54,434 bases of DNA from Candidatus Aenigmatarchaeota archaeon (GTDB lineage Archaea; Aenigmatarchaeota; Aenigmatarchaeia; QMZP01; JAFGSV01). Shown piece after piece: positions 5,796-10,713 of the stretch (positions are counted from its first letter, which is position 1; each line of letters opens with the position of its first letter). The position numbers and the translations under genes are program-made. A model generated the notes under the pieces. That model worked only from the letters and a program-made list of their open reading frames with translations. It was not told where the DNA came from and did no database searches. The stretch covers positions 1 to 54,434 of the forward strand of contig JAFGSV010000009.1 in assembly GCA_016934325.1 (NCBI GenBank), written 5' to 3'.

Positions 5796-5854
5796 CAATA
5801 TTATTGACCAAGTCATTGATCGGATAGTTGCCATATGAATAAGGGTTGCTGGCG

Positions 5855-6514
5855 ATGGAGACTCTGAGCTTGCTGATATACCTGGGGAAGAAGGGAGCCA
5901 CGAAGAGGTTCATAACGGTAACGACGCCGAAGATGGGCGGCGACCTCGGCATCTCTCAGCAGAGCGTGAGCAGGTGGCTCATATCGCTGGAGCGCGACGG
6001 CATGATCGCCAGGAAGGAAGGCATAAGGGGATACCTCATACAGATAACCCGGAAGGGCATGGATTACCTGTACGAGGTCAGGAGCGACCTGAACGAGATA
6101 ATACTCTCGAGCAAGAAGATCGAGATGCGCGGCCAGGTGACTTCCGGCATGCTCGACGCCAAGTACTACATGGGTCTGCGGGGTTACAGAGACAACATTA
6201 AATCCAAGCTCGGCTTCAAGCCCTTCCTTGGCACCCTCAACGTCAGGCTCCTGTCCGTCGACGACACCCAGAGGAAGGAGATGCTGTGCGGGATGGACGG
6301 GATAGACATACCCGGCTTCAGGCAGGGGAACAGGATATTCGGGGGCATAAAATGCTTCCCATGCGACATATCGGGAACCAGCGGAGCCGTGATAATCCCC
6401 GAAAGGAGCCATTACGGCTTCGACACGATCGAGGTGATATCTCCGCATAACCTGAGGAAGCGCTTGAAACTGCACGACGGCGACGGCGTCAACGTGCGGG
6501 TGACGGTGGATTGA
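5855..6514 (+). CDS. ribK: CTP-dependent riboflavin kinase with DNA-binding domain (RbkR type)
   Basis: Makes FMN from riboflavin using CTP as phosphate donor. Residues about 1-80 form a winged helix-turn-helix (GGDLGISQQSVSRWLISLERDG); residues about 95-219 form the DUF120 kinase domain (GLRGYRDNIKSKLGFKPFLGTLNV, then IPERSHYG and the C-terminal RKRLKLHDGDGV). This two-domain form is RbkR, a transcriptional regulator of riboflavin biosynthesis and uptake genes in archaea. The ATG at 5855 has AAGGG nine bases upstream; a TTG nine bases earlier is less likely. A palindrome sits over its promoter, and a complete ECF transporter follows in the same operon, so the protein probably senses flavin status and controls vitamin uptake. 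Confidence 0.9.
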   Translation: METLSLLIYLGKKGATKRFITVTTPKMGGDLGISQQSVSRWLISLERDGMIARKEGIRGYLIQITRKGMDYLYEVRSDLNEIILSSKKIEMRGQVTSGMLDAKYYMGLRGYRDNIKSKLGFKPFLGTLNVRLLSVDDTQRKEMLCGMDGIDIPGFRQGNRIFGGIKCFPCDISGTSGAVIIPERSHYGFDTIEVISPHNLRKRLKLHDGDGVNVRVTVD

Positions 6515-6516
6515 GG

Positions 6517-7113
6517 ATGTGCCTGAAGAAATATTTTAATGCCAGGGAAATCGGATTCGGCATGAGCAGCAACGAGATAACGGCGAGCGCCGCCCTTGCG
6601 GCGATATCGGCGGCGCTGCAGATGATGCACGTGGGATATCTGTCGCCGTGGGGGATGTGGATCGACCTGGTTGCAGTCTCATGGATATTGGGTTATTTCA
6701 TATACGGCGGCAGAACTGCTTTCGCGGTTTCGATCGTGGGGGCCCTGTTGATCACCCTGATCGCCCCGTCGACCTGGCTCGGAGCGATTATGAAGTGGAT
6801 AGCGACGGTCCCGATGTTCCTCGTCCCTGTCGCCTTGCAGAAAATGAGGGGTATAGGGATTGACAAGCTCGCCAAATTGAGGTTCCTGGTGCCTGTCATC
6901 CTGCTGGCAGTGGTCATCAGGGGGGCGATAGTGATACCGGTGAATTATTACATAGCGATCCCGATATGGATGGGCTGGACTCCCGCGCAGGCCATGGTTT
7001 ACGTGCCGTGGTGGGCGATATTCGGGATCAACGCGATACAGGGCGCGCTCGAGGTCTTGCTGGCATGGCTGCTCGTTTTCAGATTCAGACTTGACAGGTT
7101 CAGGACATGGTGA
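6517..7113 (+). CDS. ECF transporter substrate-binding S component, probably for riboflavin
   Basis: Integral membrane protein of about 198 residues with five to six hydrophobic segments. An Ala-rich first helix (ITASAALAAISAALQ) is typical of energy-coupling-factor S components, where an AxxxA motif contacts EcfT. It starts directly after the riboflavin kinase stop codon and overlaps the ATPase gene, so the S, A and T subunits are co-expressed. Substrate is inferred from the operon: with RbkR upstream, riboflavin is the best guess. An alternative start at 6562 would give a shorter cytoplasmic N-terminus. Confidence 0.75.
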   Translation: MCLKKYFNAREIGFGMSSNEITASAALAAISAALQMMHVGYLSPWGMWIDLVAVSWILGYFIYGGRTAFAVSIVGALLITLIAPSTWLGAIMKWIATVPMFLVPVALQKMRGIGIDKLAKLRFLVPVILLAVVIRGAIVIPVNYYIAIPIWMGWTPAQAMVYVPWWAIFGINAIQGALEVLLAWLLVFRFRLDRFRTW

Positions 7114-7844
7114 TAGAGGCAAAAGACCTGAGTTTCAGCTACCCGGGCAAGCATGTCCTGCGTGACATCTCCCTCACAGTCGAAAGAGCTGATTTCTTGG
7201 GGATAACGGGATCGACGGGTTCGGGAAAGACGACCCTAGCGATGTGCTTCAACGGCCTAATCCCGAAATCGGTGAAGGGCAAGTTCTCCGGAAGCGTGTC
7301 GGTCATGGGGGCAGACACGAGGAAGAGCAGGATATCGGACCTGGCGAAGAAGGTGGGGTTCGTGTTCCAGGACCCCGACTGGCAGCTTTTCAGCCTAACC
7401 GTAAGGGACGAGGTCTCCTTCGGGCTTCAGAACCTCGGGATGAAGGGCATAGACCGGAGGGTCAGGGAATCGCTTAGGATGGTCGGACTGTCCGGTTACG
7501 AGGGCACGGAGCCCCACAGGCTCTCGCAGGGGCAGAAGCAGAAGCTGTGCATAGCCTCGGTGCTTGCGATGGAGCCGGAGATCATAATACTCGACGAGCC
7601 TACCTCCCAGCTGGACTACCGGAGCAGCATGAACGTGTACGGGATCCTGAGGAAGCTTAACGAGTCCGGGAAGACCGTCATAGTAATAGAGCACAATACA
7701 GACCTGCTGGCCGAGTATGCCAACAAGGTGCTTTTGCTGGATGGCGGCAGGGCGGCCAGGCTCGGCCAGGCGATGCAAGTTCTCAGCGACAAGAGGCTGC
7801 TGGGCAGGCTGGGTGTGAAATTGCCGTGGGTGTGCATGAAATGA
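7107..7844 (+). CDS. ecfA: ECF transporter ATP-binding protein EcfA
   Basis: ABC ATPase of 245 residues that powers vitamin uptake. The Walker A motif is GSTGSGKTT (around residue 35), the Q-loop is FVFQDPDWQLF, the signature LSQGQKQKL, and Walker B IIILDEPTSQLDYRS, followed by the switch His in VIEHNTDL. The Q-loop form FQDP(D/E)xQ is typical of the CbiO/EcfA group. Only one ATPase gene is present, so the ATPase pair is probably a homodimer. It overlaps the genes on both sides. Confidence 0.93.
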   Translation: MVIEAKDLSFSYPGKHVLRDISLTVERADFLGITGSTGSGKTTLAMCFNGLIPKSVKGKFSGSVSVMGADTRKSRISDLAKKVGFVFQDPDWQLFSLTVRDEVSFGLQNLGMKGIDRRVRESLRMVGLSGYEGTEPHRLSQGQKQKLCIASVLAMEPEIIILDEPTSQLDYRSSMNVYGILRKLNESGKTVIVIEHNTDLLAEYANKVLLLDGGRAARLGQAMQVLSDKRLLGRLGVKLPWVCMK

Positions 7845-8413
7845 ACCCCAAGCTCAAGCTACTTCTTGTGTTCCTCACCACCAGCATACTCCTGGTCTTC
7901 CCCAACATGATCCTAATCTTTTCGATAACGGCCCTCTCTGTGGCCCTGCTCGTCGCCAAGGGATTGCATAACAATTATATAATATGGTCGAAGGCGATTG
8001 CGATCATAATGCTCGTCATCATCGCGCTCAACTCGTTCACATACTCAGCCGCTGGCTTCAGCACAGCCGGCTTCTATTTAGGATTGATGATCGCCATGAG
8101 GTTCCTTGCCTTCCTGTCACTGGTTACGATATTCGTGCACACCACGGCAACTAACGAGCTGAAGGACGCTTTCAGCTTCCTTCCGCGCACGATCTCGACC
8201 ATCTTCTTCCTGGCGCTTGTCCTTCTCCCGAAGATGGCCATGCTATTGGAGAACATAGTCAATGCGCAGAAGTCGAGGGGCCTCAACTTCAGGAGCCCCA
8301 ACATATTCAGGACGTATTTCCCCGTTCTCGTCCCCCTGTTCGGCAAGGCGCTGACACAGTCTGAGCGCATGGCCCTCGCCATGGAGGCCAGGGGATGGGC
8401 AGCGACCGGCTAA
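7841..8413 (+). CDS. ecfT: ECF transporter transmembrane protein EcfT
   Basis: Scaffold membrane subunit of about 190 residues that links the S component to the ATPases. It has about four hydrophobic helices followed by the two Arg-containing coupling motifs of the family (QKSRGLNFRS and AMEARGWAATG), which dock into the ATPase grooves. The ATG at 7841 overlaps the ecfA stop codon. It is the last gene of the ribK-ecfSAT operon. Confidence 0.88.
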   Translation: MNPKLKLLLVFLTTSILLVFPNMILIFSITALSVALLVAKGLHNNYIIWSKAIAIIMLVIIALNSFTYSAAGFSTAGFYLGLMIAMRFLAFLSLVTIFVHTTATNELKDAFSFLPRTISTIFFLALVLLPKMAMLLENIVNAQKSRGLNFRSPNIFRTYFPVLVPLFGKALTQSERMALAMEARGWAATG

Positions 8414-8442: not shown

Positions 8443-9477
8443 ATGGAGCCGGATGATGCCCCTTCCTTCAGGCTCAGGCTGTCCTTCTGGATCATACTCG
8501 GGGCGTTCTCCGTCTTCTTCGCAGAAGTCGTATCCGGCTCGGACATGTTCCCCTATTTCCATCTGTGGGGGATAATTGGCATCTTCCCGCTTTACGTCCT
8601 GCATTCCTTGGTGCTATCATCGCTTGTCTTCAATTACGGGAAGCCAAGATTCTCACCTCTGTATCTGGCTGGCGTTATCTTCGGGCTGTACGAGGCATAC
8701 ATAACGAAGGTCCTGTGGAACCCATACTGGGGCGAGCCCTTCTTCATGTTCGGGGGCATAGCGGTCATAGAGACCATCATACTGCTGCTGGTATGGCATT
8801 CGATAATGGCATTCGTGATCCCCCTTTTCATATGCGAGAACCTGCTGACTGGATCAAGGCAGCTAGTAAACGGATTGCCTGAGCGGATCAGGAGGGTATT
8901 ATCAAGCGGCAAGAATATTAAGATACTCCTTATCGCAATGGCCATAGTCTTCGGGATGCTGCAGAGCAGCAATTCGACAGGCACCCTTGTTTCCATGTCG
9001 TCCGGCCTGTGCACGATCTCCGTCCTCGTCATCCTTGTCTATCTCTGGAGGAGCAGGACTGGGGGAAGAGCCTACAGCATGAAGTCGCTCCTGCCGAACA
9101 TCCGGGAGCTCAGGATATTGTTAGTGCTGCTCATCCTGCTGTACCTTTGGATGGGTTCGATGATACGGATGGAGGCCCTTCCCGGACTGCAGCCACAGGC
9201 AGCCGTGTGGCTTCTTTATGTCGTGTTCTTCTTCCTGCTATTCACCAGCCTGAGGAAGAGCGCAAAGCTTCCGCTGCAAGACAGGTACGAGGCACCAGTT
9301 GGGTTTTCATGGAAATGGACATTGCTGCTGGCTATCGTTTTCACCTTCACCTCGGCCATTATCAGCCCTAATCGAGTTGTTGCCGGCACCATTCTGCTGC
9401 TGACATGGTTCGGGATGGGATTCTTAGGCATCTTCCTGCCGGCCATCGCGATTAACGACACATTCAGGAAATCGTGA
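8443..9477 (+). CDS. Polytopic membrane protein, unknown
   Basis: A 344-residue protein with roughly nine to ten hydrophobic segments covering almost its whole length, and no recognised catalytic motif. An aromatic-rich early loop (LWNPYWGEPFF) is notable. A TATA-like TAAATATATA at 8411-8420 is centred about 27 bases before the ATG, so the gene has its own leaderless promoter even though it starts only 29 bases after ecfT. A function in transport or envelope biology is possible but not shown. Confidence 0.7.
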   Translation: MEPDDAPSFRLRLSFWIILGAFSVFFAEVVSGSDMFPYFHLWGIIGIFPLYVLHSLVLSSLVFNYGKPRFSPLYLAGVIFGLYEAYITKVLWNPYWGEPFFMFGGIAVIETIILLLVWHSIMAFVIPLFICENLLTGSRQLVNGLPERIRRVLSSGKNIKILLIAMAIVFGMLQSSNSTGTLVSMSSGLCTISVLVILVYLWRSRTGGRAYSMKSLLPNIRELRILLVLLILLYLWMGSMIRMEALPGLQPQAAVWLLYVVFFFLLFTSLRKSAKLPLQDRYEAPVGFSWKWTLLLAIVFTFTSAIISPNRVVAGTILLLTWFGMGFLGIFLPAIAINDTFRKS

Positions 9478-9531: not shown

Positions 9532-10713
9532 TCAAAAGCCGTACAACTTCTTGGCAGATTGATATATTCTCCCTTCAGCCTCTTTCAGATAAATTCGTGT
9601 TTGAATCTTCATCAGCTTGTTAATTACCGAATCCGGTTTTGCAGTGCTGCTTCTTTCTTTCAGTGCCGCCAAGGCTGCGCCTGCGATATCGAAAGGATTC
9701 ACCCCAGCCCCCTTGTCGAACCCCACCAAGTCGCATCCTATCCCTATGCAGTTATTGTACGCCGAGACAGCACGCTCAGCGTCTTCGTTCGATAAGCACC
9801 TTGCGGCATACACTCCTTCATAATTGGCAGCACCCGAGATCATGCCGATCCCAGAGCCGCAACCGACTATAGCCAGCGCAGGTGACGATGCTTTGCTGAG
9901 CATCCTACCGACCTCTGCTGAAATCAGGGGATAGTCGCATTCTTGCGAAGACGATTCATTATTGCAGTATCCGATATTTTCGTCGATCATCATTATTTCC
10001 AGGTCATTGTCCAACTCATGCAGCAATCCCTCCAGCTTCCTGAAGTCGTCTGCAGCCCTGTGATCCGAGCCAAGATAGATGATTATCTTGCCTTCGTATG
10101 ATGACATCGGGTAAGCTGCGGCTTCCGTATCGCGAATGCCGGCCTGTTCGTACGCCTCGGATTTTATGGCCAGCGTCTGCAAATACCTCCTCATGCGCTT
10201 CTTGTCGTCACTGTCTGATCCGGTATAGAATTCGGTTTCGAGCCATGTCAATATCAGCGGAATCTGGGACGTTCCCGCCGAACTGCCGACACCGAGGAAA
10301 TTGGGGTTGTTGTGCCTCCTGGTGGTTTCAGCATCGCTCACTGTAACGCATCTGGAACCTATCACGAACGGGCATTTCGATCCCAGCACGAGTACGTCGT
10401 TCCCTGTTTGACCAAAACCAATCCCTACGCTATGGTAAGGGTCCTTGGCGATGGCCGTACCGATTCTTTCGGAGACGGCTATAGAATTACCCGTCCCGAC
10501 ATCCACGACATCGTAATTCAATGATTTCAGGGCATGGATAGAAGATCCTAAAGGGTCTTTCTGATCATCCATTGAACCGACAAAGACCTTCTTGCCGGCA
10601 TGTGAGCCGCTCATCCCGCTCATTATGTCATGATCGACACTCTCGGAACTGATATCCTCCAATCGAATGCCATTGAGCCATCCCGTCACCACCCAGGGCC
10701 AAACTTCTTTCAT
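9532..10713 (-). CDS. Tandem RpiB/LacAB-family sugar-phosphate isomerase-like protein
   Basis: A 393-residue protein made of two RpiB-like domains. Domain 1 (about 42-162) has VVDVGTG, RRHNNPNFLGVG and WLETEF, which match RpiB. Its first catalytic motif is GSMDD instead of GSDHAG, and its central loop is GQTGN without Cys. Domain 2 (about 209-345) keeps GSDHRA (215-220), DYPLIS and GCGSGIGM with Cys285, but its His-Asn loop has become AYNNCIGIG without the His. RpiB isomerases build active sites at the dimer interface, so the fusion may form one composite site. A true substrate cannot be named; ribose-5-phosphate or another aldose phosphate is possible. Codon use looks more AT-rich than its neighbours. 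Confidence 0.72.
   Translation of the reverse strand: MKEVWPWVVTGWLNGIRLEDISSESVDHDIMSGMSGSHAGKKVFVGSMDDQKDPLGSSIHALKSLNYDVVDVGTGNSIAVSERIGTAIAKDPYHSVGIGFGQTGNDVLVLGSKCPFVIGSRCVTVSDAETTRRHNNPNFLGVGSSAGTSQIPLILTWLETEFYTGSDSDDKKRMRRYLQTLAIKSEAYEQAGIRDTEAAAYPMSSYEGKIIIYLGSDHRAADDFRKLEGLLHELDNDLEIMMIDENIGYCNNESSSQECDYPLISAEVGRMLSKASSPALAIVGCGSGIGMISGAANYEGVYAARCLSNEDAERAVSAYNNCIGIGCDLVGFDKGAGVNPFDIAGAALAALKERSSTAKPDSVINKLMKIQTRIYLKEAEGRIYQSAKKLYGF

Follow-up and report, generated by a model that had tools for sequence, protein, structure and literature searches.

An ordinary RpiB active site combines the Asp-His/Tyr/Cys-loop half of one subunit with the His-Asn/Arg half of the other, and the dimer carries two such sites. 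A reading frame in the window, which is the whole stretch of 54,434 nucleotides analysed from a Candidatus Aenigmatarchaeota archaeon (contig JAFGSV010000009.1), was predicted to encode two fused RpiB domains that retain complementary catalytic motifs. This raises the question of whether the two domains of one chain share a single working site, as separate subunits do in the LacA/LacB pair, or are the remnants of a duplicated gene in decay.

One reading frame with two RpiB-family domains

The frame at 9532-10713 runs from ATG to TGA through 393 codons with no internal stop, and Pfam matched PF02502 (LacAB_rpiB) twice in its product, which established the fused double RpiB of the original prediction. 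Excised and searched alone, domain 1 (D1) scored 39.7 bits and domain 2 (D2) 47.6 bits against a cut-off of 24.7, and across the whole genome PF02502 matched these two domains only. Translation may instead start at M32 or M35, which makes the first 31-40 residues doubtful; residues 1-37 had a pLDDT below 50 in the full-chain model. The positions of the domains and motifs are given in Table 1.

Table 1. Features of the fused gene, with positions in the window
Feature	Position	Strand	Basis or remark
ORF of fused double-RpiB protein	9532..10713	-	393 aa + stop, PF02502 twice
Domain 1 (residues 41-200), degenerate RpiB, LacA-like His-Asn donor	10114..10593	-	Pfam, AF2, PDB matches
Domain 2 (residues 204-393), degenerate RpiB, LacB-like Asp-His/Tyr/Cys-loop donor	9535..10104	-	Pfam, full-chain model
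D1 SMDDQ (47-51) at SDHAG site: catalytic Asp-His lost (M48-D49)	10561..10575	-	
D1 GFGQTGND (99-106) at ICGTGIGM site: G101 in place of the catalytic Cys, D106 in place of the last loop Gly	10396..10419	-	
D1 RRHNNPN (132-138): ring-opening His134 and Asn135 kept	10300..10320	-	Role per PMC3755991, PMC3212906
D1 WLETEF (157-162), conserved helix	10228..10245	-	
D1 KKRMRRYLQT (171-180): basic stretch at phosphate-binding RHxxR site	10174..10203	-	Register uncertain
D2 GSDHRA (215-220): Asp217-His218 kept	10054..10071	-	
D2 CDYP (259-262): Tyr261 kept	9928..9939	-	
D2 GCGSGIGM (284-291): catalytic Cys285 and anion-hole loop kept	9841..9864	-	
D2 SAYNNC (317-322) at RxHNNxN site: ring-opening His lost	9748..9765	-	
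D2 VINKLMKI (363-370), about at RHxxRxxKI site: phosphate-binding Args lost	9604..9627	-	Register uncertain

The protein scored below the cut-off of every NCBIfam model for RpiB, LacA and LacB. The highest-scoring model was nevertheless RpiB, and the RpiB models (PRK05571, 79.7 bits, cut-off 135; TIGR01120, 39.6 bits, cut-off 138.65) outscored the equivalog models for LacB (38.1 bits, cut-off 234) and LacA (20.5 bits, cut-off 164). The architecture likewise corresponds to neither class, as an RpiB has the full residue set in a single domain and LacAB is encoded by distinct genes of a lacABCD cluster, whereas here one gene encodes two domains with half the set each.

The full chain was modelled with relatives aligned to D2, and D1 was modelled on its own from a 28-sequence alignment, because MAFFT placed every full-length single-domain relative on one of the two domains. 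The separate D1 model (AF2) had a pLDDT of 87 and a pTM of 0.76. When it was compared with the PDB using Foldseek, all 45 matches with E ≤ 0.001 were RpiB-family structures, the full-length ones with TM scores up to about 0.8, and the LacA chain 4lfk_A aligned with a TM score of 0.81 on target length. The full-chain model had a pTM of 0.47 and a poorly modelled D1. In its D2 core most 10-residue blocks exceeded a pLDDT of 90, the top PDB matches were RpiB, and the LacB chain 4lfk_B superposed with an rmsd of 2.4; D2 also carries a long C-terminal helix (361-391) in the model. Predicted domain by domain, both D1 and D2 are modelled with the RpiB alpha/beta fold, an outcome favoured by the RpiB alignments taken as input.

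Division of the active-site residues

The two domains were then placed in an alignment with 45 RpiBs from archaea, bacteria and viral contigs, four LacA, four LacB and P0002, a related archaeal protein described below. The N-terminal losses of D1 were read from alignment A5, because hmmalign left the first strand of D1 unaligned. An upstream SHAG in D1 (residues 37-40) was considered as a kept catalytic motif and rejected, because P0002 has an SHEG upstream in addition to the true ADHRG; the D1 model was started at residue 41 to avoid this false register with SDHAG.

The motif losses anticipated for the two halves were all recovered in the alignment. D1 keeps RRHNN (132-136) and WLETEF and has lost SDHAG and the catalytic Cys, while D2 keeps GSDHRA and GCGSGIGM and has lost the His-Asn loop, with SAYNN in place of (R)xHNN. 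The Cys-Gly loop of D1 is replaced by G101-Q102, its DYP loop is absent through a 6-residue deletion, and its version of the RHxxR motif is only rich in Lys and Arg (KKRMRR, 171-176, register uncertain). D2 has an intact C285-G286-S287-x-x-G290 loop and no C-terminal RHxxR motif. In the LGxR motif, D1 has Ser and D2 has Asp in place of the third phosphate-binding Arg; this replacement, together with the altered RHxxR of D1, indicates that substrate binding differs from that of a standard RpiB. In RpiB, each site receives its Asn from the partner protomer, and ring opening is the task of a conserved His (PMC3212906). Where the alignment is secure, the first half of D2 and the second half of D1 make up a complete site, and the reciprocal site is incomplete.

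To count these losses, we took columns kept in at least 87% of the 45 RpiBs, of which 21 lie on the N-terminal and 8 on the C-terminal side. D1 retained 6/21 N-side and 5/8 C-side columns and D2 retained 15/21 and 1/8, a difference with p = 0.027 in a Fisher test on the retained counts; the nine unambiguous site residues alone gave p = 0.067. Statistical support for a complementary split is thus modest, and the case, as read from the sequences, rests more on the identity of the kept residues and on their match to the LacA/LacB division.

Taken together, these results suggest that the gene probably encodes a covalent RpiB 'dimer' with one complete composite site and one dead site; its packing, activity and substrate are what we infer. 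D2 would supply D217, H218, Y261, C285, G286, S287 and G290, and D1 would supply H134, N135 and basic residues near 171-176, which together would form one complete site, while the reciprocal site, with nearly all its residues lost, would be dead. The reaction is likely to be an aldose-ketose isomerisation of a sugar phosphate, in which His134 may aid ring opening and Cys285 may act as the base that shuttles a proton between C1 and C2. The fold, the PF02502 family and the catalytic residues of the reconstructed site are shared with RpiB, which differs in being a homodimer with two equal sites, compared with two unequal domains and one predicted complete site here, and in its unaltered phosphate-binding positions.

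Comparison with LacAB and origin of the fusion

Galactose-6-phosphate isomerase, LacAB (PDB 4lfk-4lfn), has a single working site built across its two subunits. Its pocket is lined by Met92, His96, Asn97, Arg130, His131 and Arg134 of LacA and by Asp8, His9, Ile10, Arg39, Tyr42, Cys65, Thr67, Ile69 and Thr73 of LacB, and the LacB mutants C65A, D8N and H9A are inactive (PMC3755991). The suggested similarity in idea to this pair extended to the residues themselves, both in the sequences and in the published site: D1, like the four LacA in our residue table, retains His-Asn and lacks the Tyr, the Cys and the histidine of Asp-His, and D2 has the reverse pattern, like the four LacB. Both systems consist of two RpiB-fold partners, with one live and one dead site known for LacAB and predicted for the fusion, LacA giving His-Asn and Arg and LacB giving Asp-His, Tyr and the Cys loop, and LacB has a C-terminal extension, as does D2. 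LacA and LacB, however, are products of separate genes in Gram-positive bacteria and act on a hexose phosphate, whereas the domains described here lie in one archaeal chain and are closer to an archaeal RpiB-like protein than to LacA or LacB.

This archaeal protein is P0002, a 177-aa single-domain RpiB-like protein from Ca. Aenigmatarchaeota BS750m-G81 (contig JADHYO010000023.1), whose genome belongs to the same order as that of the window. It carries both site halves, Asp-His/Cys loop and His-Asn, in its one domain and can therefore form an ordinary homodimer. Among 100 relatives P0002 was the best phmmer match of D1 (54.6 bits, next 35.5) and also of D2 (55.8 bits, next 30.2), with identities of 40% and 39% over the best-matching stretches and about 30% overall for D2. 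D1 and P0002 have GSHxG, AETxRxHNNxNxLGxG and RYLQT in common, and D2 and P0002 have CDYPxxSxExGR and NYxGVYxAxCL; RYLQT and NYxGVYxAxCL are unusual motifs. The GC3 of P0002 is also low (0.44), and no gene order common to its neighbourhood and the window was found. A few kb upstream of P0002, a bAvd-like protein is encoded beside a reverse transcriptase (L054:1124-2507), as in a diversity-generating retroelement.

The similarity to P0002 sits mostly in opposite halves of the two domains, 40.4 bits in the C-half of D1 and 40.5 bits in the N-half of D2, and neither the N-half of D1 nor the C-half of D2 had a good phmmer match among the 100 relatives. The conserved halves are moreover contiguous (about residues 113-305), so one can picture a site formed between two chains (D2 with D1'), or a middle that makes up one circularly permuted RpiB between vestigial ends. 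We regard this as improbable: the whole of D1 was modelled as a complete RpiB fold and the expected strands and helices were modelled in the C-half of D2, both results that the RpiB alignment input favours, and the N-half of D1, although almost without detectable similarity on its own, aligns with P0002 almost gap-free up to the DYP loop.

In three trees, one with 59 sequences and two reduced, D2 and P0002 were joined weakly (support 88/57). D1 sat on a very long end branch (4.6 changes per column) with no clear position, and the D2 branch was 2.85 changes per column. AU tests rejected neither a trio of D1, D2 and P0002 nor the pairings of D1 with LacA and D2 with LacB (p of 0.39 and 0.31 for the latter two). 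A fusion of LacA- and LacB-descended genes would account for the identical order and residue division, and both domains have weak matches to the corresponding LacA and LacB models. We nevertheless consider it very improbable, as both halves are far closer to P0002 than to any LacA or LacB and the RpiB models score above the LacA/LacB models; the sequence comparisons do not favour LacA and LacB as the ancestors. Because both domains match P0002 best, we favour tandem duplication with complementary decay, apart from LacA/LacB. The most likely origin, judged by these comparisons, is tandem duplication of a P0002-like gene followed by complementary loss, in an order that we infer. The one-site RpiB architecture may have arisen here a second time and independently, through an archaeal gene that was duplicated in tandem and fused and whose interface site was split by complementary loss, so that the halves would work only as a pair; we hold the case for and against this scenario to be about evenly balanced.

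We searched for further copies of the fusion. With P0002 as the query and two matches in one frame as the signature, no second fused copy was found among 156 genomes of the phylum. The comparison of P0001 with 61 relatives returned only the window's own fused copy, as did scans of genome, viral and plasmid contigs with short peptide patterns, which are insensitive; one such scan of genome contigs matched just G035. Two other Aenigmatarchaeota genomes encode fusions of RpiB to ribulose-phosphate 3-epimerase, or RPE (PF02502 + PF00834; L034:793-1905 and L036:838-1902, both on the minus strand), which unite two successive enzymes of the pentose-phosphate pathway in a single chain. They resemble the present gene in having an RpiB domain inside a fused Aenigmatarchaeota gene and differ in that the partner is the epimerase, not a second RpiB, and that the RpiB domain is complete. 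No fused RpiB-RpiB protein was found in the open-access literature, whose coverage is incomplete, in keeping with the original remark that no described fused version with this division was known. The split-site principle is already known from LacAB; what appears new is the single-chain LacAB-like division, in an archaeon and probably of independent origin.

A degenerating pseudo-enzyme, in which both copies decay after duplication and the complementarity is due to chance, has to be set against this. The GC3 of the fused frame is 0.58, compared with roughly 0.7-0.84 in most neighbouring genes, and is among the lowest of the window's likely genes; it is compatible with decay, low expression, relaxed selection or foreign origin, and decay of the gene is entertained for this reason. 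The very long branches of D1 and D2 and the occurrence of the fusion in no other of the 156 genomes searched point the same way, and if two out of four half-sites failed at random a complementary pattern would arise 1 time in 3. However, the 393-codon frame is intact, D2 has kept all tabulated residues of its catalytic half despite its low overall identity to P0002, D1 has kept RRHNNxN, and the gene is the sole RpiB-family gene of a genome in which RpiA was not found. On balance we think decay unlikely and prefer the covalent dimer with one composite site.

Substrate, genomic context and implications

No match to RpiA, and none to RPE, transketolase or HxlA, was found in the genome, which is 79% complete. 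A PRPP-synthetase-family match is present. Across the phylum, RpiA is rare (7/156 genomes) and an RpiB-family match occurs in 28/156. No candidate for a ribose-5-phosphate isomerase other than the fused gene was found in its genome, and since RpiA was undetected there and is rare in the phylum, and PRPP synthetase appears to be present, isomerisation of ribose-5-phosphate is the likeliest role that the gene content suggests.

Another sugar phosphate is a possible substrate, given the altered phosphate-binding positions. A composite-site isomerase of the same architecture could act on a hexose- or tetrose-phosphate and not on ribose-5-phosphate, since the LGxR and RHxxR motifs are altered in P0002 as well as in both domains. 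LacAB applies the RpiB fold and the same split site to hexose phosphates (PMC3755991), and a different substrate has been suggested for a Coccidioides RpiB with changed phosphate residues (PMC3212906). The missing transketolase, RPE and HxlA matches also fit such an enzyme. We consider this reading doubtful, though a serious contender: the genome offers no other candidate for ribose-5-phosphate isomerisation and has the PRPP-synthetase-family match, and the best NCBIfam model, though below its cut-off, is RpiB.

The genome also contains a RuBisCO large-subunit gene, and an e2b2/ribose-1,5-bisphosphate-isomerase-like gene, which scored below cut-off, lies roughly 1 kb from the RuBisCO gene (G000:C27:93398-96030; L146, L147). 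In a genome where matches to transketolase, RPE and RpiA were not detected, this pair suggests a pentose bisphosphate route of the AMP type. The neighbours of the fused gene, which include genes for a CTP-dependent riboflavin kinase, ABC ATPase and CbiQ transporter components and a 2-thiouracil desulfurase family protein, point to no direct link with it. At 5846-8413, the riboflavin kinase, a membrane protein with no Pfam match, the ABC ATPase and a CbiQ-like T component form a cluster that looks like a riboflavin-uptake ECF transporter; a 344-aa membrane-like protein, also with no Pfam match, adjoins these genes at 8443-9477.

Why natural homodimers with interface sites sometimes turn into one-site heterodimers is an open evolutionary question, for which LacAB is the example in the RpiB family. 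The fused archaeal protein, if it arose independently, would indicate that such a division can evolve more than once, with gene fusion as one of the ways to reach it. Because P0002 is a living stand-in for the undivided ancestor, the steps of the split can be tested in the laboratory. The fusion also carries a warning for annotation, which, proceeding domain by domain, would label each half a dead enzyme.
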